Positions 2,498-38,832 of a DNA stretch of 38,832 bases are shown here, piece by piece. The DNA is taken from contig CALWGV010000050.1 in the NCBI GenBank assembly GCA_944380185.1, positions 1-38,832 of the forward strand, given 5' to 3'. A program made the translations under genes and the position numbers. This DNA comes from an uncultured Lachnospiraceae bacterium (lineage in GTDB: Bacteria; Bacillota; Clostridia; Lachnospirales; Lachnospiraceae). The number at the start of each line of letters is the position of its first letter. The stretch's first letter is position 1. The notes beneath the pieces were generated by a model that ran no database searches, had not been told where the DNA came from, and saw only the letters and a program-made list of their open reading frames with translations.

Positions 2498-4266
2498 ACA
2501 TTCTCCTCCTCCATAATTTCCTCTTGCAAACGCTCTGCGTCTTCTTCGGCTCCCTGCGGCTCCTCATACTGAGCCATATAAGTGTCATAATAAATTCCCT
2601 TTTGCTGCAGAAGCTCTCCGTGAGTTCCCCGCTCGGCCACCCTGCCTCCGTCCAGAACGATGATTTCATCGGCCTGGCGGACGGCGGAAATCCGGTGGGT
2701 GATGATCAGTTTGGTTACAGAGGTGAGGGAGGCAAGCTCCCGCTGCACCTCCTCTTCCGTCTCCGTATCCAGGGCCGAGGTGGAATCGTCCAGAATCAGG
2801 ATCGGCGCCTTCTTTGCCAGAGCTCTGGCGATACTGAGCCGCTGCTTCTGTCCGCCGGAAAGACCCACGCCTTTTTCGCCGATCACCGTCTCATATCCCT
2901 CCGGCAGCTCGGAGATGAACCCGTGGGCCCTGGCCATGACGGCGGCTCCCTCCATCCGCTCCGTCTCCATCTGGTCCCGGCTGCCAATCCGCAGGTTTTC
3001 TTCCACCGTATCGGAAAAGAGAAATACATCCTGCATCACCACAGACATGCTTCCCCGCAGCTGTCCAAGATCCAGACGCCGCACATCCACCCCGTCCAGC
3101 AGAATTTCCCCCTCTGCCGCGTCATAGAACCGTTCGGCCAGGTTGACGATGGAGGTCTTGCCGGAACCGGTCACTCCCATGATTCCCAACGTCTTTCCGG
3201 CAGGCAGGGTAAAGCTCACATCCGTCAGAATCTTCTGTCCGCCCAGGGTAAGGCCCACATGGCGAAATTCCAGATTTCCCTCCACCTTTTCAAGCCGCAC
3301 CGGTTCCTGCGGGGAGACAATCTGGGGAGCCTCGTCGAGAATCCGATTGATCTTTTTGTTGGAGGCCACGGCAGCCGCCATGCTGTTGGTCACCCAGCCC
3401 AGAATCTCCATGGGCCAGACAATATTGTTGGCATACTCGATAAAGGCTCCCAGCTGGCCCAGGCTGATTCTCCCCTGCACGACAAAGACGCCGCCGACAC
3501 AGACGCACAGAAGCAGCAGAGTCTTGGTCAGGAAAGAAATATTCGGGTTGTACTTAGCCATCAGCTTTGCCAGGGCCATGTTCAGACTGTAGTATTTCCC
3601 GTTGTGCCGGCGGAACTTCTCGATCTCGTAGCGCTCCCTGGAAAAGGCCTTGACTGTGCGAACCCCGGTCAGGTTTTCTTGGGCCACCGTATTGAGGAGG
3701 GCATTCTCCTCACTGATCTCATCGTATATCTTATCCAGCCCCTTTTCCAGGCGGATAGCCACGTATCCCACCAGAGGCATAATGCACAGGGGAATCAGCG
3801 TCAGGAGAGGGCTGATTCGCACCATACAGACGATGACGATCACCGTGTGAACCAGAGCCTCCACACAGAGCATCCCCACATAGCCCACCGCGTCCCAGAT
3901 TCTCTCCACGTCGTCCTTGACGCGGGCCATCAGCTCTCCTGTATTGTTTTTCTCAAAAAATCCCACGCTCATCCGCTCAATATGGGCAAACAGCTTTCTT
4001 CGGATATCGCGGGCAATCCGCACGCCGATCACGTCGGCCGTAAATTCCTGCAGATACTTAAAGATTCCTTTGCCCGTTCCCAATAAAAACAGCGCCATCA
4101 AAAGACCCAGCAGAATCTCCTGCTGCCCGCCGACCACCACATCATCGATAATCCGTTCGATCACGCCAGGCACCGCCACGTCCATCAGGATGCCAATGAC
4201 CAGGCAGATTATGGCAAACAAATAGAGATACCAGTATCTCACCATATATTTTCCCAGATTTTTCAT
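2488..4266 (-). CDS. ABC exporter half-transporter, degenerate-site subunit
   Basis: This 592-residue protein has the same architecture: six membrane helices (about residues 10-300) followed by an ATPase domain. Walker A is GVTGSGKTS and the signature is canonical (LSGGQKQRLSIARAL). Walker B ends in Asp instead of the catalytic Glu (ILILDDST), and an H-loop is present (ITHRIS). Because the two ATP sites are shared, its intact signature completes the partner's active site, while its own Walker B pairs with the partner's defective signature. The start is supported by GGAGGAG six bases upstream. It is the first structural gene after a long attenuator-type leader. The C-terminus is acidic. BmrC-like multidrug exporters are the closest familiar family; this is inferred from motifs, not from an alignment. 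Confidence 0.93.
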   Translation of the reverse strand: MKNLGKYMVRYWYLYLFAIICLVIGILMDVAVPGVIERIIDDVVVGGQQEILLGLLMALFLLGTGKGIFKYLQEFTADVIGVRIARDIRRKLFAHIERMSVGFFEKNNTGELMARVKDDVERIWDAVGYVGMLCVEALVHTVIVIVCMVRISPLLTLIPLCIMPLVGYVAIRLEKGLDKIYDEISEENALLNTVAQENLTGVRTVKAFSRERYEIEKFRRHNGKYYSLNMALAKLMAKYNPNISFLTKTLLLLCVCVGGVFVVQGRISLGQLGAFIEYANNIVWPMEILGWVTNSMAAAVASNKKINRILDEAPQIVSPQEPVRLEKVEGNLEFRHVGLTLGGQKILTDVSFTLPAGKTLGIMGVTGSGKTSIVNLAERFYDAAEGEILLDGVDVRRLDLGQLRGSMSVVMQDVFLFSDTVEENLRIGSRDQMETERMEGAAVMARAHGFISELPEGYETVIGEKGVGLSGGQKQRLSIARALAKKAPILILDDSTSALDTETEEEVQRELASLTSVTKLIITHRISAVRQADEIIVLDGGRVAERGTHGELLQQKGIYYDTYMAQYEEPQGAEEDAERLQEEIMEEENVWL

Positions 4267-4319
4267 ACTCTCCTCCCTCTTTCACCTCTTTACTTCATAA
4301 GCCTCACTGTCTGCTGCAT

Positions 4320-4354
4320 AAAAAAAGGCCCAGGCCTTTACGCGGACCCGGACC
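4320..4354 (-). terminator. Intrinsic terminator T2 in the ABC exporter leader
   Basis: Read on the minus strand, GGTCCGGGTC and GGCCTGGGCC can form a 10-bp stem (three G-U pairs) with an 8-nt loop, followed immediately by seven T. A shorter alternative stem (AAAGGC/GCCTTT) also ends at the T run. It lies about 50 bp upstream of the first exporter gene and downstream of its promoter, so it should act as an attenuator. Confidence 0.7.
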
Positions 4355-4391
4355 ATACAAGCCGAATATTTCCCAGATATCTCAGGACGCG

Positions 4392-4420
4392 AAAATGCCG
4401 CAGTCAGACAGACTGCGGCA
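4392..4420 (-). terminator. Terminator-like hairpin T1 in the ABC exporter leader
   Basis: TGCCGCAGTC and GACTGCGGCA form a perfect 10-bp stem with a 5-nt loop, followed on the minus strand by TTTT and then CGCG. It begins 30 nt after the leader-peptide stop codon, where ribosome position could influence folding. The short T tract makes it a weaker terminator than T2. Confidence 0.6.
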
Positions 4421-4449
4421 CACGGTCACATTACACAAACTCTGTGAAT

Positions 4450-4557
4450 CTATTCCATGCAGACGGTGAGGCAGACTGTCGATTTTTTCCATTTTTTGTC
4501 GTTATTTACGCTTGCGTTAATTCCCATTGCTCTGTTCACACGAATCTTCATCGACAT
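4450..4557 (-). CDS. Leader peptide of the ABC exporter operon, 35 aa
   Basis: This small ORF has a perfect AGGAGG ribosome site seven bases before its ATG and starts roughly 40 nt after a strong promoter. The peptide begins MSMKIRVNRAMGINASVNND, is basic in the middle (DKKWKKS) and ends CLTVCME. Two terminator-like hairpins lie between its stop codon and the exporter genes. This matches ribosome-mediated attenuation as known for Bacillus subtilis bmrB-bmrC-bmrD, where a ribosome slowed on the leader ORF lets transcription continue into the exporter genes. The ORF, ribosome site and hairpins are visible; translation and regulation are inferred. Confidence 0.65.
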   Translation of the reverse strand: MSMKIRVNRAMGINASVNNDKKWKKSTVCLTVCME

Positions 4558-4600
4558 GTTGCTGCCTCCTTTCTCCTTTCTGAATCTTTAATCTTTTTCT

Positions 4601-4629
4601 ACTATACAGCCTGTAATAGATTTTGTAAA
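4601..4629 (-). promoter_or_regulatory. Sigma-A promoter of the exporter leader and operon
   Basis: TTTACA (4624-4629) and TATAGT (4601-4606) are separated by exactly 17 bp on the minus strand. Transcription would start near 4594, giving a leader of about 330 nt before the first exporter gene. Confidence 0.75.
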
Positions 4630-4720
4630 GTATTTTTTCACATTTTAATAATACTCACCAAATCTAATGGGGAATTTTGACTTTCTATTGGGCAATCTTC
4701 CTGCATTTCCTATAAATTCC

Positions 4721-4808: not shown

Positions 4809-6005
4809 ATGGACTATATCACTGTGCGGGAAGCCGCCCGGAAATGGAATATTTCAGACCGGCTGGTACAGAAATACTGCGCGGAGGGCCGGATCGAAGG
4901 AGTCCGAAGATTCGGAAGATCCTGGGGGATTCCCTTCGACGCAGCCAAACCGCTGGATCCGCGAAAGGAGCAGCCCCTTTTCCCTTTTTCTTCCCGTCCG
5001 CGGCCGGAGGATTTTCTTGGATTTATGCCGCTTATGAACACCCCCTTTGAACCGGGCCGCTGCGCGGACTGCATCCGCGAAATGGAGGACGGGCCCAGGA
5101 AGAGGATCGCCCTTGCCGAATACCATTATTTCAGCGGCCATCCCGAAAAAGCCATACGGGAAGCGGAGCTGTACCTGACCTGTCCCGACGAGGCGTACCG
5201 TTTTTCCGCCTGTCTGCTCTACGCCTATGCCAATTTATCCGTCGGCCAAATCCACCACGCCCGGTATGCCCTGACAGAAATCAAAAACACCCTGTCCAGC
5301 CATGCCGGCAAAGCCCCCTGCGTCCGCGCCATCGAAGCTTTTGTGGCCTTTGCCTCCTCTGTGCTTCTGCATCTGCCGCTGCCGGAGGAAATGCCCCCGA
5401 CCCAGGAGTTTCTGCCTCTCCTGCCCCCTGGCCTGCGGGCCTTTGCCCTGTACGTCCAGGCGCACTACCTCTATCTGCGGAAGGATTATGGAAAAAGCGC
5501 AGGCATCGTAGAGGCAACCTTGGACATGGGGGCATCTCTCTACCCCATCCCCTCCATTTATCTGCATCTGGTTGCCGTGATGGACTATATGAGCCTGAGA
5601 CAGACCGAGCAGGCGCAGAAACACCTGCTGGCAGCCTGGGAAATAGCCCGCCCCGACGACCTGATCGAAGGCTTCGGAGAACATCACGGACTTCTGGGCG
5701 GAATGCTGGAGGCTGTTATCAAGCCGGGCTGGCCCGATGATTTCAAGCGGATTATCGCCATCACCTATCGTTTTTCCGCCGGATGGCGCAAAATACATAA
5801 CCCGGAAACCGGCCACACCGTCGCGGACGACCTGACCACCACAGAATTTGCCGTCGCCATGCTGGCAGCCAGAGGATGGACCAACCCGGAAATCGCGGCC
5901 CATATGAATGTATCCGCCCACACCATCAAGCGGCATGTCTCCGCCGCCCTGCGAAAGCTGGGCATCGGCCAGCGCCAGGAATTAAAAAAACATATGTTAA
6001 AGTAA
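4809..6005 (+). CDS. Transcriptional regulator with N-terminal HTH_17-like and C-terminal LuxR-type DNA-binding domains
   Basis: The protein has 398 residues. Residues 1-50 (MDYITVREAARKWNISDRLV...) resemble the helix-turn-helix of MerR/excisionase-type proteins. The middle 280 residues are helical and repeat-like (for example PEKAIREAELYL), suggesting TPR-type packing as in MalT/LuxR-family sensors. Residues about 343-398 form a LuxR/GerE domain (GWTNPEIAAHMNVSAHTIKRHVSAALRKLGI, quoted in part). No response-regulator receiver domain is visible. The ATG follows CGGAGG. Its strong terminator makes it a single-gene unit, directly upstream of the giant surface protein gene, which it may control. 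Two DNA-binding domains in one chain suggest bridging of two sites, but this is inference. Confidence 0.85.
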   Translation: MDYITVREAARKWNISDRLVQKYCAEGRIEGVRRFGRSWGIPFDAAKPLDPRKEQPLFPFSSRPRPEDFLGFMPLMNTPFEPGRCADCIREMEDGPRKRIALAEYHYFSGHPEKAIREAELYLTCPDEAYRFSACLLYAYANLSVGQIHHARYALTEIKNTLSSHAGKAPCVRAIEAFVAFASSVLLHLPLPEEMPPTQEFLPLLPPGLRAFALYVQAHYLYLRKDYGKSAGIVEATLDMGASLYPIPSIYLHLVAVMDYMSLRQTEQAQKHLLAAWEIARPDDLIEGFGEHHGLLGGMLEAVIKPGWPDDFKRIIAITYRFSAGWRKIHNPETGHTVADDLTTTEFAVAMLAARGWTNPEIAAHMNVSAHTIKRHVSAALRKLGIGQRQELKKHMLK

Positions 6006-6151: not shown

Positions 6152-9100
6152 ATGAAAAAACGGATTGTAAGCCTGATACTAACTTTCAGTATTCTGCTTT
6201 CCATCACTCCGGCGGATATCCGTACAGCTCTCGCCCAGGATAATAACATCCTGTACGGCGACGCCGACGGAAACGGCCGGGTGGAACTGCTGGATGTCAA
6301 CCTGATGGAGCGATATATCGAAAACGATGCAGAAGCGGCCGCCAGCATTCATTTCACCGAAGCCGATGTGAATGCGGATGGGATTGTGGATGACATTGAC
6401 GTACAATTAGTCAAGGACTATCTGGTCGGGAACCTGACCAGTCTGGCGCCGCTGCTTGCCACCCTTACCTTTGAGACCGACGGCGGCGGGACCATAGGCC
6501 CGGTCCAGGCCGGCGTCGGATACCCTTACCGTGGGGAAATTCCGGATCCATCCAAGGATAACTACATATTCGTAAACTGGCAGAAGGAGGACGGCAGCGT
6601 CTGGTATCCGCTAAGCGACGTGATCGCCGCCGATATGACGCTGACTGCCGTTTATGAGCCGGTGCCCTCTTCCCGTGAGCTGAGCATCACCTCCTTCAGC
6701 CTGGCGGACCAGCCGGCAGACGTTTCCTTTTCTGTCACCGGCAATTTCACCGACCCCCAGGAGGTAAAGCAGCTGGTTACCCTCCTGCCCAAGGACGGTT
6801 CCGAACCGGTCGCCTTTGATGTCCGCGAGAACGGAGACGGCAGCTTTACCATCTATGCTCCCGATGGCTTCACGCCGGGCAGCACCTATGAGCTTACGCT
6901 GGGGAACGGCCTTTTCTTTACAGACAAAGAGGAAATGTACCGCACAGCCTATTTTGCCATTGCCAAAGATGAGGTCGACAATCTCCAGTATAATGCAGAC
7001 ATGATTTTCATCCAGGATACGGAGGAAATGCGCTACACCGTCGGCGGCCAGACGACGGACGTGCTGGAGTCCGCCCTCTTAAGCAACGATGAAAGCACCG
7101 AAGCCATCGCCGGCAGCTTTACGATGAGCGCCGGACCCGCCCTGCAGACAGACGACATCGTCTGCATTTACGAAAACACGGATCCCAGAAAACGCGACTA
7201 TACTCAGAACGATTACGAGGACGACGCCCTGGCCTATATCCGCATTACCGGCGTAAATGGAAGCACCTATCAGTTCGAGAGCCTGAACGAGGAAGACGCG
7301 GGGGAAGTGCTGGCCATGCCGGACACTATTCCTTATCAGGTGGCGAGCCTGCCCGCGGCGGATGGCACAGTCAACCGCAACGACTACGACGCCCTTGCCA
7401 GAAATATGCTGGGCATGGATACGGCCCCGGCCTTTGCGATCAGCGACTTTCTCGTATTCTACACGGAGGATTTCGGAAGCCTTAACGCGGGCAGCTCCTA
7501 TGCCTACGGGCAGATCACGGCCGTATCCGGCGACACGGTTTCCTACCGTCTGGTGAGCCGCCGGGATATCGAGGATTTCATGGGAATGTTCGTCACCCAG
7601 GAGGTAGACGGCAAGTCCCTGGTGGATGAAGAGCAGCAAAAGGAAATCCTGGAAAGCGTAAAGCAGCAGGCAGTGGAAAGCGGCTTTGCCGAGGAAGTCG
7701 CCAACCGGATGATAGCCTCCGCCCTGCAGACGGAGGATATACAGCAGCGGCTGATGGATATCGGCATGACAGAGGCGGAAATACAGGCAATGAGCCTGGC
7801 CTCCATCTCCTCCATCACGTCGCAGCAGCCCTTCGGCAAACGGACCAAATTCATAATAGACGGGATCGACATTGTCCCCACCTTTATTTACGAAGGCCAT
7901 TTTGACAACGGCGTCGGCATTGCGCTGGAATTCTGCCTCAGCATGCATGCGGAAAGAAGGATGCCCAACAACCAGGTCAGCCAGGTGCAGATCGAGCTGA
8001 ACGCCTATCTGGAGCAGGAGGTCTCCCTGGGCTTTGACGTAAGCGTCGAAGACCGCTGGAAATGGTATCTCTTTATCCCGGTGCTGGAGGATCTGGACGT
8101 CACGATCTCCGTGGATATCCAGGACTATACCGCCATGTCCGTCAGTGCCGTCGTCTATACGCTGCGGGATGAAGTGGTCAAGAAAAAATGGAAAGAGCTT
8201 TCGGAGACGATCACCGGCCCGAACGCTTCGCCCGAGATGAGGGCCGCCATACGCAAGATCAATACCATAGCCGCCAAGATCAAAAAGATAGCGGTAAAAG
8301 GCCAGAATAAGATGGAAGAAAGCCTCGATGTGCTCGAGCAGTCGCTCGCCGCGCTGAAAAGCACTCTTCCCGGCGTAACCGTCGACGGGGTGACTTACAG
8401 CTTCGACGAGATTATGGACAGCCTGGAGGCTGAGGACGTCAGCGAAGCCTTTGATGAGATGTTCCAGGCTTCTGACGATGCAGAGACGAGGACCGGCCTA
8501 GATAACCTGATCGAACGCTACCAGGAGATGCTGAACCAGGAATGCGACTGGATTGACTTATTCAATCTGCAGCTGTATGAGCATGAATTTCATATCAAAA
8601 TCGTTGCCGTCAAGGTGGGCGTAAACCTGGTTGTCCGTGGAAACGTCAACCTGGCCATGGGAGCGGATCTGGAATACCAGGTGGGAAAACGCTATGTTTT
8701 CTGGCTCCATATCATGGATCTGGAGTCCGGCTCTAATGAGATCGACCTGATCGATGAAAGGTTTGGCTTCCAGTTCTACATCATGGGCACCCTCGGCCTG
8801 AAAGCGGGAATCAAGGCGGAAATTGCCTTCGGCCTGATCAGTACCAGCATAGCCAGCATCGGCGCGACAGTGGAATTCGGCGCCTATCTGAAGCTGTACG
8901 GATACTTCATCTATTACTTTGAGAGGCTGCGACAGGCAGGCTCCTCGGTATGGGAGGAAACGGAGGAAATGATGGGCGCCCTCTATGTCGACTTCGGCCT
9001 CTATGTCACGGTCAATTTCAAGGCGCAGGTTCTGGGCCTTCTCAAATACGAACCGACGCTCTACAATGGAGAGTTCCCGCTGGTCACCGTCGGGGATCCG

Positions 9101-12100
9101 CTGTCCGCCTACGATTTTGCCCTGGTTCCCGATGAAGACGATGTCCTGTATATCCAGGACGACGATATCGACAGCTCCAATGGGATCGCCATGACAATGC
9201 CCGGCATTTATCTGACGATGAAAACCATTCATCTGGTCAGCGGTGAGATGAGGCAGCAGCGCTATGACGGCGATCAATTTATTATTACTTTTACCGATTC
9301 CCGGTTCCGTTTTGAAGACGGGAAGATCGTGGTCGACGTGCCGGCCGGCGCCCGCTATATGGAATGCGATATGCGCATCGTATGGAAAACCGGCAAGCTG
9401 GCCTTCAGCAAGTTTGACACCGATATCACGGTTCCGGTGGTCTGGACGAATATGAGCGGCTCGGAGCTGAACGAAAAATTCACTGCAAGCGCAGAGGTAG
9501 GCAATCTCACCGACGGCTACGAACTGGTGTGGAGCCGGCGCTACAGCCGTGTCCAGACCTTTGACCTCCCCGCCGAGGAGGAAATTCTGGAGCTCATCCA
9601 TTACTACGGCTACGAGACTGACAACGGCAACCTGAAATACGAATCCGTCGGCGGCTATCAGGAAGAGACCACAGGGCTGAGCCTGACCACCGACCGAACC
9701 TGGCGCTTCGAGATTACGCCGAAGAAATACACCGTTACGGTAAACGGGGTCCAGAACGCGGACGGCACGACGGAAACGAGGACGTACACGGCCCTTTACG
9801 GAGAAAGCTTTGACTTCTCCGACCTCCGGGATACCGGCACGAACAATCCGGAGACCAATACCTATACCTCTTTCTTTAGCCTCACGGATGCAGGCGGCGG
9901 GGAAATAACCGGCGGACTGACCGTGGATATGGCTTTCGCGGAAGACTACGGCAGCGGCCTTACCCTGACGGCAAACTACCGAAGCGAGGCCCTGACCGCC
10001 ACCTATCGTTTCATCGGCCTGGGCAATCAGGCGGATATAGAGGTGCCGTTTAAGAGGGGCACGACCCCGTATCTGCCCAACCTGGATGAAATCGTGGGAG
10101 ACGCCAGCTATGAAATCACCCCGACTCCGGCTCCGTCCGAAAGCTCGGTCACTTACACCGTAATCTGCACGACCGTACAGGATCCGGACTCCATCCATAC
10201 GCTGACCTTCCATACCAACGGCGGCAGCGCGATCAAAGCCCAGCGCTACGCGGAAGGAAATATCATTTACCGGCCCACCGACCCGGTGCGAGACGGCTAT
10301 ACCTTCAGCGGATGGTTCTCCGACGAATCCTTGATCATTCCCTTTGATTTCACCGGTGCGCGGATGCCGAACCAGGATATGGCCCTCTACGCCAAATGGG
10401 AACCAAGAAGCTATACGGTCAGCTTTGACGCCATAAACGGAGACGATCCTTCCCCTATCACCGTTCGGTACGGCGAGAAATACGGGGAGCTCCCGACGCT
10501 GACAAACCCTACCCTCCGTTTTCTGGGCTGGTTTACGCAGGCGGAAGGCGGGGAGGAAATCACGGCGGACACTGTTTATTCCCTCACGGAGAATCAGACC
10601 CTATATGCCCGCTGGGCGGAAAAGATAGAGGTCCAGAGCAGCTGGTTTACCGTTACGCCGCAGACATACGATTATGACGAGACGGAACCCGGTTTTCCCG
10701 TTCAATTTACCTTCGATGCATCGGAGAATCCGGAAGTCGGCCTGACAGCGGAGGATTTCACCGTCACTTATCTGTGGGAAGGATCCGGCTCGGAATGGAC
10801 GGAAGATCTGCCGGTCAATGCAGGCGGCTACCTGGTCAAATTCAGCCGGGCAGCGGATGATACATACCGGGCCTTTGAATATACCACCGATGCCGCAGTC
10901 GTGTCGGTCAATAAGATTTCCATGGTCGAGCCGGGCACAAGGTATGGGTACTTTAATGGTCCTTCCCTCTCCGTCAGCAACTGGGTCATAACAGTCGACA
11001 CTCGCTATTGCGGAATCAAGGGGGACGGAGCTGTTACCTATGAACTGCAAAAGGAGAAGAATCTCGTCCTGAACACTGTGGAATCTGGCAACACTACCGG
11101 AGAGTTTAACGTAAAGGACTACGGTGCCGGAGCATACGTGGTAATCGTCCATGTTGCAGAAGGCACAAACTATACAGCGGCAAGATCAGAAGCGGCATCT
11201 ACCGCGATAAACGACCAGGGCGAATTCGATCTGACAGCGGCCGCAAACAGTACCCCACCCCACCTGGCAGCAGAACCGGCCGAGCCGGCCGGCCAGACTC
11301 CTGCCCCCACTGTGCTGTACCGCATTGCGCCGGCTATCTATTTACCTGGCTCGGCCCCTGTACCGGTCAGCCTGCCAGAATCAAAATCCGCAGCAAATGC
11401 AGTGATGACTCTTTCACCGGAAGAAATTGCCCTCAACCGCGGCAAGGAATTCGAGATCGCGGTGGGTCTGGATCAGACGACAGAGCTCTGGGGCATCCTG
11501 GCGGCTGTCAGCTATGACTCCGCTTCTCTGGAACTGCTGGGCTACACCTGCGGCGATATTTTTACGGAAAGCCAGTTTACCGTACAGGAAAAACTGACGG
11601 CAGAGCCCTATCGGCTGCTGGCCACATTGGATGAAATATCGACCACCTTTGCCAAAGGGAATTTTATCGTCCTGAAATTCAAGGTCAGCGATAATGCGGC
11701 AGAAAAAGAAACATCCATATCTCTGGAAATGCTAGAAGTCATCGGTGAGACGGCGCCAGTTGCGGTTAATCCAGGAACCGCTGCCCGCCTGACAGTTGAC
11801 AACACCGCCCCGGTCATAAGCGGTATTCAGGATGGAGGAACTTACTATGGAGATACGATGGTGACCGTTGACGAAGAAAATCTTGTCTCCGTCACGGTAA
11901 ATGAGAAAACCATAACCCTCACCGATGGAAAGTTCACTCTCCATCCTGCCGAGGGCAGACAGATTATCACAGCCGTCGACAAAGCCGGAAACAGCGTCAC
12001 GATCACTGTCACGGTTAAGCAGAAACCGATTCCCGAACCGGCACAGCCGGGAACAGCCGACGGCGGTTCCGGTACCGGCGACAGCAGCCCCTTCGGATTC

Positions 12101-12184
12101 TGGCTCATTCTGCTCCTTGCCGCCGGCGGGATTTTAGGCACGCTGTTCATTCAAAGCATGCGCAGAAAGCGCAGACAAAAATAA
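6152..12184 (+). CDS. Giant secreted, membrane-anchored protein with dockerin, InlB-type repeats and a cohesin-like domain
   Basis: The 2010-residue protein begins with a signal peptide (about 1-29, ending TALAQ). Residues 33-95 form a type I dockerin with two calcium-loop repeats (GDADGNGRVELLD and ADVNADGIVDDID). An InlB/Flg_new-type beta repeat follows (about 103-170), and two more lie at about 1351-1416 and 1419-1489 (FSGWFSDE, FLGWFTQAEGG). The 500-1300 core is unrecognised, apart from a helical Lys-rich stretch near 680-760. Residues about 1751-1870 resemble a cohesin domain (VGLDQTTELWGILAAVSYD), followed by an Ig-like domain (about 1880-1955). The C-terminus has a TGD-containing linker, one membrane helix and a RRKRRQK tail. 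No clear LPXTG is present. AGGAGG precedes the ATG. No catalytic domain was recognised; a scaffold or adhesion role is inferred. Confidence 0.85.
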   Translation: MKKRIVSLILTFSILLSITPADIRTALAQDNNILYGDADGNGRVELLDVNLMERYIENDAEAAASIHFTEADVNADGIVDDIDVQLVKDYLVGNLTSLAPLLATLTFETDGGGTIGPVQAGVGYPYRGEIPDPSKDNYIFVNWQKEDGSVWYPLSDVIAADMTLTAVYEPVPSSRELSITSFSLADQPADVSFSVTGNFTDPQEVKQLVTLLPKDGSEPVAFDVRENGDGSFTIYAPDGFTPGSTYELTLGNGLFFTDKEEMYRTAYFAIAKDEVDNLQYNADMIFIQDTEEMRYTVGGQTTDVLESALLSNDESTEAIAGSFTMSAGPALQTDDIVCIYENTDPRKRDYTQNDYEDDALAYIRITGVNGSTYQFESLNEEDAGEVLAMPDTIPYQVASLPAADGTVNRNDYDALARNMLGMDTAPAFAISDFLVFYTEDFGSLNAGSSYAYGQITAVSGDTVSYRLVSRRDIEDFMGMFVTQEVDGKSLVDEEQQKEILESVKQQAVESGFAEEVANRMIASALQTEDIQQRLMDIGMTEAEIQAMSLASISSITSQQPFGKRTKFIIDGIDIVPTFIYEGHFDNGVGIALEFCLSMHAERRMPNNQVSQVQIELNAYLEQEVSLGFDVSVEDRWKWYLFIPVLEDLDVTISVDIQDYTAMSVSAVVYTLRDEVVKKKWKELSETITGPNASPEMRAAIRKINTIAAKIKKIAVKGQNKMEESLDVLEQSLAALKSTLPGVTVDGVTYSFDEIMDSLEAEDVSEAFDEMFQASDDAETRTGLDNLIERYQEMLNQECDWIDLFNLQLYEHEFHIKIVAVKVGVNLVVRGNVNLAMGADLEYQVGKRYVFWLHIMDLESGSNEIDLIDERFGFQFYIMGTLGLKAGIKAEIAFGLISTSIASIGATVEFGAYLKLYGYFIYYFERLRQAGSSVWEETEEMMGALYVDFGLYVTVNFKAQVLGLLKYEPTLYNGEFPLVTVGDPLSAYDFALVPDEDDVLYIQDDDIDSSNGIAMTMPGIYLTMKTIHLVSGEMRQQRYDGDQFIITFTDSRFRFEDGKIVVDVPAGARYMECDMRIVWKTGKLAFSKFDTDITVPVVWTNMSGSELNEKFTASAEVGNLTDGYELVWSRRYSRVQTFDLPAEEEILELIHYYGYETDNGNLKYESVGGYQEETTGLSLTTDRTWRFEITPKKYTVTVNGVQNADGTTETRTYTALYGESFDFSDLRDTGTNNPETNTYTSFFSLTDAGGGEITGGLTVDMAFAEDYGSGLTLTANYRSEALTATYRFIGLGNQADIEVPFKRGTTPYLPNLDEIVGDASYEITPTPAPSESSVTYTVICTTVQDPDSIHTLTFHTNGGSAIKAQRYAEGNIIYRPTDPVRDGYTFSGWFSDESLIIPFDFTGARMPNQDMALYAKWEPRSYTVSFDAINGDDPSPITVRYGEKYGELPTLTNPTLRFLGWFTQAEGGEEITADTVYSLTENQTLYARWAEKIEVQSSWFTVTPQTYDYDETEPGFPVQFTFDASENPEVGLTAEDFTVTYLWEGSGSEWTEDLPVNAGGYLVKFSRAADDTYRAFEYTTDAAVVSVNKISMVEPGTRYGYFNGPSLSVSNWVITVDTRYCGIKGDGAVTYELQKEKNLVLNTVESGNTTGEFNVKDYGAGAYVVIVHVAEGTNYTAARSEAASTAINDQGEFDLTAAANSTPPHLAAEPAEPAGQTPAPTVLYRIAPAIYLPGSAPVPVSLPESKSAANAVMTLSPEEIALNRGKEFEIAVGLDQTTELWGILAAVSYDSASLELLGYTCGDIFTESQFTVQEKLTAEPYRLLATLDEISTTFAKGNFIVLKFKVSDNAAEKETSISLEMLEVIGETAPVAVNPGTAARLTVDNTAPVISGIQDGGTYYGDTMVTVDEENLVSVTVNEKTITLTDGKFTLHPAEGRQIITAVDKAGNSVTITVTVKQKPIPEPAQPGTADGGSGTGDSSPFGFWLILLLAAGGILGTLFIQSMRRKRRQK

Positions 12185-36683: not shown

Positions 36684-37916
36684 TTATAAGAGAGCCTCCT
36701 GCTCGACGACTCGCCGGTCGGCGGCCAGGCGGGCAGCCAACTCTCCCAGCTGGGGATCTGTACTGAGGGCGGCAAGCTTCTCAGCCATGGATTCGGAGAT
36801 TTCCTCGGTCAGTTCCCTGGCCAGGCAGTCTTCATAGGTCTCGATATCCATCCGGCATGGCGTGAGCGCGGGAAAGACCTTTTCCCGCAGATGGCGGTAA
36901 ATGCAGATTCCGCCGTAGTCTAAATCCCCGCTGTGCTCATAGCGCACCAAAGCGCCCTGGTCCTGGAGAATCCGGACCAATTCCGTCAGGAAGGCTCTCT
37001 CACAGGGGGAAAGATAGCCGTGGGTAAAAACCACCAGTTTCTCTTCCTCCATCGGCTCCGCCATAAAATTGGCCTTATTCTCGATGGTCAGGATGCGGCG
37101 GATCGTCTGCTTTTCACACAGGCGGGCGCTGCGAATTGTCGGCTCGTTGAGCACCAGCCCATAGGGATAATCGGCTGTGTCCAGGCATTTCCCAGCCAGC
37201 TCGATGCGCAGAGAACCCTTGATGGTGAGTTCCTGAGAGTAGTTGTCAATATGCAAGAGACGAAGAACGGCCCCGTCGTCCATGGCCTCGCTGTCCGCGT
37301 CCGCCTCCGGGTTCAGGCGGCGGGCCATACCGATAATGGTCTTTTCATACTGCCTGTGAAACTCCTTGGAATTTCCCAGATAGTGATTGCTAAACACACG
37401 CAAATACATGGGAAACTGAGGCGAATCCTCCTGGCTGAGACGCTCCAGTTCATCCAGGCCCTGCAGACAGCGGCAGACCCTTTCCCGGTGGGCCCAGTCC
37501 GAAGCGGCAAATACCGTTCCATTGGAAAGCTTTTCTTCCCATTCATCCAGACTTCGGTTGATCCACGGCGTGGCGATCCCTTTTCTCCAACCGGCCAGAT
37601 CGGCCTTCTGCCTCTCCCAGCGCACCCAGATCGGCTCACACCCGGCCAGGCGGTAGACTCCCTCGATGTTTTCCATCCGATAGCGGATTCTGGCCGCGTC
37701 ATAGTTTCTCTCCCGCCAGTCATCGTTTTTGAGAAAAATCAGTCCCTCCCGCTCCAACAGGCGGATATCCTCTAGTATCTCCTCCCGAAACCCTTTCAGA
37801 TAGAGTTCGTCGTCGATCTCCATGCTCTTGCCGCCTGCGGGGAGGGTCGGAAACCGTTTCCAGTTTTTCCAGTTTTTCGTCTCATAGTGCACCAACAGCT
37901 CCTGCAGCAGGATCAT
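36684..37916 (-). CDS. jetD: Wadjet anti-plasmid system nuclease subunit JetD
   Basis: This 410-residue protein has an N-terminal DUF3322-like region (about 1-190) and a C-terminal DUF2220/Toprim-like nuclease domain. Candidate metal ligands are E279 (TIENKANFM) and D331/D333 (HSGDLDYGGICIYRHL), in the arrangement known for JetD. H299 lies in FTHGYLSP. JetD is the subunit that cuts plasmid DNA after the JetABC SMC-type motor has extruded it. The ATG overlaps the JetC stop (ATGA), so the genes are coupled. A short palindrome (TCTCTTATAAGAGA) sits at its 3' end; no classical terminator is seen in the 136-bp gap that follows. Confidence 0.88.
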   Translation of the reverse strand: MILLQELLVHYETKNWKNWKRFPTLPAGGKSMEIDDELYLKGFREEILEDIRLLEREGLIFLKNDDWRERNYDAARIRYRMENIEGVYRLAGCEPIWVRWERQKADLAGWRKGIATPWINRSLDEWEEKLSNGTVFAASDWAHRERVCRCLQGLDELERLSQEDSPQFPMYLRVFSNHYLGNSKEFHRQYEKTIIGMARRLNPEADADSEAMDDGAVLRLLHIDNYSQELTIKGSLRIELAGKCLDTADYPYGLVLNEPTIRSARLCEKQTIRRILTIENKANFMAEPMEEEKLVVFTHGYLSPCERAFLTELVRILQDQGALVRYEHSGDLDYGGICIYRHLREKVFPALTPCRMDIETYEDCLARELTEEISESMAEKLAALSTDPQLGELAARLAADRRVVEQEALL

Positions 37917-38832
37917 GCGCCGCCCTCCTCCCGCTTATCCTCTCGTCCGTTCGCCTCCTGCTCGTCCGTCTCCTGTCCGTCTGTCTCTTTCTCTTTTTCG
38001 TCCGCCTCCTGCTGCTCTTCCTCGTGTCCTTCCAGCAGAGCCTTGAAATGCTCCCGCTCGAACTCCTGGATATAGATGCGGTTTTTTTTCTTTTTTTCAA
38101 AGACGAAGGTCTTGTTGACATTCTCCAGATAATTCTGGATCTTATCGTTGGTGGCGCTGATGATGGCCTGAAAGCCCAGGCTGCGGATCAGCTGGATGCA
38201 GCTGCCCACCTTCTCCGCGTCCATCTGGGAGAAGGCTTCGTCCAGGACCACCAGCCGCAGCGTATCGCGCCGGCGCACCCCGCTTTTTACGTTCATGCGG
38301 TAGACCTGAGCAAAGCTGGCCAGCAATGCCACGTACAAAGGATTCTGCCCCTCGCCGCCGGAGTTTTTCGACAGCATCCGGCTCAGCCTGGCCGGGGCCA
38401 TACCCTCCACCAGCTGCTCCATATCAAAGGAGAGGTAGGTCCGGTAGTCGGCGTATTTTTCCATATTCCGGCGCGCCTCTTCCAACTCCTTCTCCCCCGC
38501 CTCCTCCGGCGGGATAAAATATTCCAAAAGTTCCTGGATCAGATCGCCGTAGCGGTTTTCGTGCTCCATCGTAAACAGGTTCATCTGATTTTCCATCCGC
38601 CCGGTCAGCTGGTTGGGATTGATATCCAGGGCCTCGTCCATAAACAGGTCGTAAAATCTCCCATCCGCTCCCCGGTTCTTCGTGACGATGAAGCGGTAGC
38701 GGTCCTTTCCGAAATCCATCCGGGCCAGGATGCGGTTCATATCGTCCTTCTGCTGCATGGCCTCCTTGATGGCGCTGCGAATCTTGTAGACAAAGTCGTT
38801 TTTAAACTGATCCACGGCGATTTTCGCCAGCT
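37913..38832 (-). CDS. jetC: Wadjet SMC-like ATPase subunit JetC, C-terminal part
   Basis: The gene enters from beyond the right edge; about 306 codons of its 3' end are visible. The fragment has an ABC-type signature region (LSKNSGGEGQNPLYVALLAS) and a Walker B motif (RLVVLDEAFSQMDAEKV), followed by IISATNDKI and FVFEKKKKNRIYIQEFER. This is the head domain of a MukB/SMC-like motor, as in JetC. The last 40 residues are a Glu/Asp/Gln-rich tail (EQQEADEKEKETDGQETDEQ) that looks disordered. It overlaps jetD by four bases. JetA and JetB should lie further upstream, outside the window. Confidence 0.88.
   Translation of the reverse strand, partial: LAKIAVDQFKNDFVYKIRSAIKEAMQQKDDMNRILARMDFGKDRYRFIVTKNRGADGRFYDLFMDEALDINPNQLTGRMENQMNLFTMEHENRYGDLIQELLEYFIPPEEAGEKELEEARRNMEKYADYRTYLSFDMEQLVEGMAPARLSRMLSKNSGGEGQNPLYVALLASFAQVYRMNVKSGVRRRDTLRLVVLDEAFSQMDAEKVGSCIQLIRSLGFQAIISATNDKIQNYLENVNKTFVFEKKKKNRIYIQEFEREHFKALLEGHEEEQQEADEKEKETDGQETDEQEANGREDKREEGGA

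Follow-up and report, generated by a model that had tools for sequence, protein, structure and literature searches.

A predicted ribosome-responsive four-segment leader upstream of heterodimeric ABC exporter genes in Clostridia

One of the systems closest to the leader described here is bmrB-bmrC-bmrD of Bacillus subtilis, where, in the accessible part of the report (PMC4191407), the terminator, the antiterminator and an anti-antiterminator all lie inside the bmrB ORF (nt 60-162); the anti-antiterminator is a proposed element, and its role is stated there as unclear. Another is the cplR uORF of Clostridioides difficile, with the related lmo0919-type leaders. According to the sections available of PMC10201436, a 5' hairpin with an anti-Shine-Dalgarno (anti-SD) sequence sequesters this uORF and ribosome stalling frees an antiterminator; the uORF has three codons (MRI), the regulated gene encodes an ABC-F protein and the terminator occludes the main gene's SD. 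Attenuators have also been predicted before ABC transporters, as the ABC-leaders of Naville and Gautheret (2010; PMC2965389, accessible text), one of which precedes a multidrug exporter of lactobacilli.

The window analysed here, a stretch of 38,832 nucleotides from an uncultured Lachnospiraceae bacterium (contig CALWGV010000050.1), carries on its minus strand, in this order, a sigma-70-type promoter, a strong SD sequence, a leader ORF, the hairpins T1 and T2 and the genes of exporter subunits A and B (Table 1). A sequence-only reading of this DNA had listed a promoter, an AGGAGG-preceded ORF of 35 codons, two hairpins and an exporter pair; all were found on this strand, and the layout upstream of the exporter pair is confirmed in every listed element.

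Table 1. Elements of the leader and exporter locus in the window
Feature	Position	Strand	Evidence
Promoter TTTACA-17-TATAGT	4629-4601	-	10 of 12 consensus positions
Leader SD core AGGAGG	4570-4565	-	Read from sequence
Segment 1, leader Shine-Dalgarno GGAGGCAG, partner of segment 2	4562..4569	-	Alignment; own-versus-cross pairing
Predicted leader ORF, 35 codons and stop	4557-4450; stop codon 4452-4450	-	ORF and SD
Segment 2, GACAGTCTGCCTC, within the last leader codons	4468..4480	-	Alignment; covariation; frame analysis
Anti-SD CTGCCTC, part of segment 2	4474-4468	-	Complementary to SD
Antiterminator strand GACAGTCTGC, part of segment 2	4480-4471	-	Complementary to segment 3, one mismatch
Segment 3, GCAGTCTGTC, 5' arm and part of loop of T1; partner of segment 2 or 4	4407..4416	-	Covariation
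Hairpin T1	4419-4397; stem 4419-4411 with 4405-4397	-	Stem 98.1% paired in 24 sequences
U tail of T1, short, ATTTTC	4396-4391	-	Sequence
Hairpin T2, second intrinsic terminator, tail U7	hairpin 4354-4327; with tail 4320..4354	-	Terminator scan
Post-T2 stretch able to pair with segment 2 (complementary to 4461-4477)	4301..4314	-	Window, L038, L039
Exporter subunit A, 592 aa, BmrC/YheI-like, LDDSTS	4266-2488	-	ORF; domains; structure-database matches
Exporter subunit B, 591 aa, BmrD/YheH-like, LDEATA	2497-722	-	Domains; structure-database matches

Each exporter subunit combines the Pfam domains ABC_membrane and ABC_tran, and the two half-genes overlap by 10 bases. Walker B is followed by Asp in subunit A (LDDSTS), the degenerate-site subunit, and by the usual Glu in subunit B (LDEATA); a heterodimer in which one of the sites is degenerate would be expected to show this pattern. 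In comparison with two-chain bacterial exporters of solved structure, the pair matched BmrCD (A with YheI, 5e-97; B with YheH, 4e-98) and scored slightly better than this with TmrAB in the case of A and with TM288 in the case of B, while the longest-scoring structural matches were P-glycoproteins, which contain two such halves. A homologue of B follows A in all 80 relatives that were compared. The exporter is carried by all seven genomes of the genus and by a minority of the genomes of the family (56 of 299 at E 1e-150).

Four segments of the leader are predicted to engage in two mutually exclusive sets of pairings. In the leader alignment, segment 1, which contains the SD, is complementary to CTGCCTC in the last leader codons; segment 2, of which CTGCCTC is a part, pairs alternatively with segment 3, and segments 3 and 4 together form T1. 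Compensating changes can be read directly from some relatives, for example in Anaerocolumna (L055 and L108), where GAGGTAA occurs with TTACCTC. When segments of 44 representative leaders were paired within their own sequence or across species, the energies were -14.37 versus -11.28 +/- 0.34 kcal/mol for 1:2 and -12.31 versus -9.57 +/- 0.37 kcal/mol for 2:3 (0 of 5000 permutations in both cases), and the control pair 1:3 showed a small effect (-6.32 versus -5.73; 24 of 5000), all of these being permutations that ignore phylogeny.

An alignment of 24 near relatives gave a similar picture at the level of single pairs. The 2:3 helix was paired in 91.3% of cells, compared with 80.9 in shuffles, and had a covariation score of 0.355 as against 0.176 +/- 0.018 in shuffles (0 of 500) and 0.011 to 0.103 in slid versions; two further measures stayed within the range of the shuffles (262 of 500 for pairs changed on both sides and 172 of 500 for additional pair types). 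The 1:2 helix was paired at 81.8% and T1 at 98.1%, and their joint covariation score was 0.203 versus 0.142 +/- 0.009 (0 of 500 shuffles); the pairs scored in this alignment, 2:3 included, were named after reading it, and the controls leave some effect of phylogeny. Alignment pair 127-258, which belongs to 2:3, occurs as GC in 11 sequences, UA in six, CG in five, AU in one and another combination in one. Its T1 base is a loop position, unpaired in the terminator, and the folding of T1 therefore cannot explain its covariation. Judged from these comparisons, both 1:2 and 2:3 covary across species, including at positions of the T1 loop. The sequence-only reading had recognised the ORF and the hairpins of this anatomy; the pairings of the SD with the ORF tail and of the ORF tail with T1, which are its key parts, were absent from it.

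The frequency of the architecture was estimated in 81 loci, namely the window and those of the 80 best subunit A relatives in the named genomes. In 69 of them a small ORF with an SD stands ahead of a terminator-like hairpin, the ORF at each locus being the one picked for the best 1:2 pairing. Under strict limits (1:2 at or below -9.5 kcal/mol and including the SD core, 2:3 at or below -8, not more than 700 nt upstream of the exporter) the full architecture was found at 63 of the 81 loci, as compared with seven strict matches elsewhere in the sequences of these loci and 14 in all of those sequences reversed. At least four of the 18 loci lacking a strict match (L044, L049, L082 and L085) have just 2 to 309 nt of upstream DNA. 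With the first cut-off, a scan of all collected loci (1.0 Mb) returned 76 matches versus 24 in reversed sequence. An absence of leader and stem conservation among relatives had been named beforehand as an outcome that would speak against an attenuator; what is found is conservation at 63 of 81 loci together with the covariation of 1:2 and 2:3.

Taken alone, the promoter match of the window is weak, since the scanned stretch contained seven promoter-like sites versus 4.3 +/- 1.8 in shuffles. Among the 65 loci with enough upstream DNA, a site agreeing with at least 10 of the 12 consensus positions lies within 130 nt before the leader start in 49, versus 2.8 expected from shuffles. Terminator-like sites in the same window stretch numbered seven, versus 5.4 +/- 2.7; the scan detected T2 and missed T1, because the T1 tail in the window is only ATTTTC. 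The fold of the window leader was better than that of 97 of 100 shuffles (z -2.14).

The leader ORF usually comprises 22-43 codons across the loci. Segment 2 precedes the stop codon by a median of 17 nt (quartiles 15-21; 83 leaders), and the base opposite the A of the SD occupies codon frames 0, 1 and 2 in 41, 13 and 29, respectively, of the 83 non-redundant leaders, these registers being derived from predicted duplexes, a few of which (L039, L041 and L228) look shifted. Since segment 2 occurs in each of the three reading frames, its nucleotides and not the peptide are kept; they are read as residues as different as MTLPQ, NNPTS and IPYL. When the 35-aa leader was searched against 61 genomes, the only credibly placed matches were its own and that in a near relative, L032 (E 0.03; L032 and L038 are one sequence); five others had E values of 0.05 to 0.7. 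As a correction to the sequence-only reading, the peptide sequence is not what the leaders conserve. The end of the ORF appears to be positioned relative to segment 2, which fits a role for the position of the ribosome over this segment.

These features probably constitute a four-segment ribosome-mediated transcription attenuator, in which the exporter would be ON when a ribosome is held at the leader start or the first codons. With no ribosome on the leader, segment 1 would pair with segment 2, segment 3 would be free and T1 (3:4) would form, leaving the operon OFF. During normal translation the leading ribosome would stand on segment 2 while T1 is being synthesised, blocking 2:3, and the operon would again be OFF. 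A ribosome held at the start or first codons would cover segment 1 and leave segment 2 free to pair with segment 3 before segment 4 is transcribed; T1 would then fail and the exporter operon would be transcribed. The ON state would thus require a ribosome that is loaded on the leader yet not advancing, as could be caused by inhibitors of initiation or early elongation. The parts, the two alternative pairings and their covariation are demonstrable in the compared sequences, and from them we infer the order of the switching events; the natural trigger would be a translation inhibitor or some other block of initiation or early elongation, and the exporter may accordingly be drug-induced.

For 44 leaders cut off in the T1 loop, which is taken as the moment of decision, partition-function calculations are consistent with this order of events. 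In the absence of a ribosome, 9.1 pairs were expected in 1:2, compared with 4.3 in 2:3; masking of the start region by a ribosome gave 9.6 expected pairs in 2:3, and masking of segment 2 left 1.0 in 1:2 and 0.3 in 2:3. As exceptions, 10 of the 44 ribosome-free leaders had no excess of 1:2 over 2:3, and in four the masking of the start did not raise 2:3. Once all of T1 is included, the terminator is the favoured equilibrium structure in both computed states (10.6 and 9.8 expected pairs); antitermination must therefore be kinetic, with 2:3 formed ahead of the synthesis of the T1 3' arm. Further points against the attenuator model are that transcripts reading through T1 would still meet T2, for which no antiterminator was found, and that the U tail of T1 is weak in the window.

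As in bmrB-bmrC-bmrD, a leader ORF, an antiterminator and a terminator here precede a heterodimeric exporter of the same type with the same gene order (PMC4191407, accessible part): a predicted leader ORF with an SD lies between the promoter and the exporter, and the antiterminator and terminator are mutually exclusive. The terminator does not lie inside the leader ORF, however; in contrast to bmrB as described in that part of the report, T1 is situated beyond the stop codon, the part of the anti-antiterminator is taken by the leader SD, with support from covariation, and a second terminator follows in the lineage of the window. With the cplR/lmo0919-type leaders the locus shares a leader SD sequestered by an anti-SD that doubles as the antiterminator, whereas, relative to the available sections of PMC10201436, it has an ORF of 35 codons with the anti-SD/antiterminator strand in the ORF tail, and ABC_membrane plus ABC_tran exporters in place of an ABC-F protein. 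It most likely follows the switch logic reported there for the three-codon cplR uORF, with the anti-SD shifted into the tail of a longer ORF. The leader fits neither definition, because its terminator is outside the ORF, unlike bmrB, and because it combines a long ORF with an exporter gene, unlike cplR. The examples of Naville and Gautheret come from other bacteria, and the accessible text of PMC2965389 presents them without a switch between SD, ORF tail and T1. Rfam 15 at the gathering score gave no match in the window (the best in 4250-4700 had E 2.6) and, in 20 relatives, one match, outside any leader; a search of open-access papers found no description of the leader switch. The earlier proposal of leader-ORF attenuation before a heterodimeric exporter, bmrB-like in layout and unrelated in sequence, is therefore supported, and within these sources the device is undescribed.

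As in erm leaders, the sensor could alternatively reside in the peptide, which would stall drug-bound ribosomes, for example at Lys/Arg-X-Arg with macrolides. The window leader has MSMKIR as its first residues, its nearest relatives have RVR and RIR there, and in the first set a [KR]-hydrophobic-R motif near the start was found in 13 of 70 leaders versus 7 of 488 other ORFs (Fisher p 2.5e-8), and [KR]X[KR] with its first residue at positions 2-6 was seen in 20 of 72 versus 8.7 +/- 2.5 in shuffles; the motif was noticed and tested on one and the same leader set, however, and 23 new leaders contained the two forms in two and four cases, respectively. As most leaders have no Arg-X-Arg motif, peptide arrest is not a general sensor and is unlikely to explain the locus. 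The early Arg-X-Arg appears to be a lineage feature that could tune drug specificity, and peptide arrest is compatible with the main attenuator model as a tuning feature in some lineages. The spread of segment 2 over three frames, with the peptide sequence not kept, speaks against both an arrest-specific and an exported peptide as the common principle. A small ORF adjoining an ABC exporter, with two cysteines among the last residues of the window peptide, might suggest that a bacteriocin or signal is exported by the pair and that the hairpins merely set stoichiometry, but two RNA pairings covary and no Pfam peptidase domain was matched in either exporter protein, which makes this interpretation highly improbable.

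An amino-acid-specific attenuator of the trp/his kind would likewise have a leader ORF, an antiterminator and a terminator in series. In 72 leaders, however, the codon enrichment for one amino acid that characterises such attenuators was not seen and no single-residue run was shared: there were eight runs of at least three identical residues, five of them of Asn, which is the commonest leader residue (11.8%) in an A-rich ORF body (41% A). With exporters as the downstream genes, this type of control has very little to recommend it. The greater stability of T1 than of 2:3 at equilibrium and the failure to find a switch partner for T2 would both suit an arrangement without a switch, in which two ordinary terminators in tandem shield the exporter from transcription entering from upstream and let a low, constitutive level of read-through pass. 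Both hairpins lie downstream of the promoter, though, with no promoter seen after T2 in the window, and covariation between the T1 loop and leader codons is not expected of a plain terminator; mere insulation is thus rather improbable, and the ribosome-mediated attenuator is the preferred reading.

Second hairpins of this kind are not confined to the window. Of 25 near relatives, 16 have another strong, U-tailed hairpin after T1, with unrelated sequences, as compared with 0 to 10% in shuffles of these stretches; the second hairpin pointed out by the sequence-only reading thus recurs, and no antiterminator was found for it. None of 16 segment pairs tested was supported as a switch for T2. Of these tests, that of the post-T2 stretch against segment 2 alone reached 26 of 5000 permutations; the two are complementary in the window, with matching changes in L038 and L039. 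A relay antiterminator formed by segment 4 and the 5' arm of T2 was rejected, the overall own value being -9.66 versus -9.62 and the pairing strong only in a few loci (L045, L046, L079 and L109). The simplest guess is that T2 acts as a back-stop where T1 leaks, the U tail of T1 being weak in the window.

Outside the immediate relatives, 26 of 50 exporter loci in a sample of the order and class reached loose limits; four of these were judged to be chance matches (L174, L175, L191 and L209), four belong to the family of the window and 18 to six other families. A further set, in which L229 and L269 repeat two loci of the first sample, gave 32 of 49. The R1 search produced matches in 37 of 250 genomes. 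Its 13 highest-scoring loci all precede ABC exporters, and among 29 family loci inspected from it, 14 leaders stand before subunit A, two before a different large ABC pair and 13 without an ABC gene. The same leader architecture occurs at L169 (genome G081) and L170 (G213) before a different large ABC exporter pair with N-terminal extensions. Of 21 homologues of this second exporter type, four reached loose thresholds, of which L270 and L272 were accepted and L276 and L287 judged to be chance; with only two of the 21 having the leader, it probably moved there once. As far as these searches indicate, the leader device is spread over several families of the class and is not limited to one gut species.

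A wider generalisation, for which the chances seem about even, is that of a class-wide Clostridial device in which the leader tail would serve, in any frame, as both anti-SD and antiterminator strand, and would control heterodimeric ABC exporters by gauging, independently of the peptide, ribosomes that are blocked at initiation or close to it; in at least one lineage the device would have been transferred to a second exporter type, and in some a second terminator would back it. For multidrug-type exporters of abundant gut Clostridia, in which little antibiotic-responsive regulation has been mapped, such a leader offers a switch that is defined and testable, and it illustrates how a leader may sense translation without a conserved peptide. 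Its anatomy (SD, anti-SD tail about 17 nt before the stop codon, and a terminator loop complementing the tail) is specific enough for genome searches.

Further copies of the leader were sought in the window's own genome in 14 stretches upstream of other ABC genes, with L167 (only 132 nt) left out; the two loose matches (L162 and L163) were not leader-like. Divergently from the leader lies a regulator gene (4809-6005, plus strand) whose product carries an excisionase-type and a LuxR-type HTH at opposite ends. Control by this gene was considered and rejected, a homologue being located near the locus in just one of the 80 relatives (L038). In relative L171 a Clostridiales-1 RNA (RF01699, 103.5 bits) is situated at the end of the subunit A gene (3205-3379, plus strand). 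Elsewhere in the window, a gene at 6152-12184 (plus strand) encodes a protein of 2010 residues with dockerin, cohesin and at least three Flg_new (InlB-like) repeats, an unusual mixture of cellulosome-type and surface-protein modules, and the region 36684-38815 (minus strand) encodes JetD1 and the C-terminal part of JetC1 of a Wadjet-type system that runs off the end of the window.
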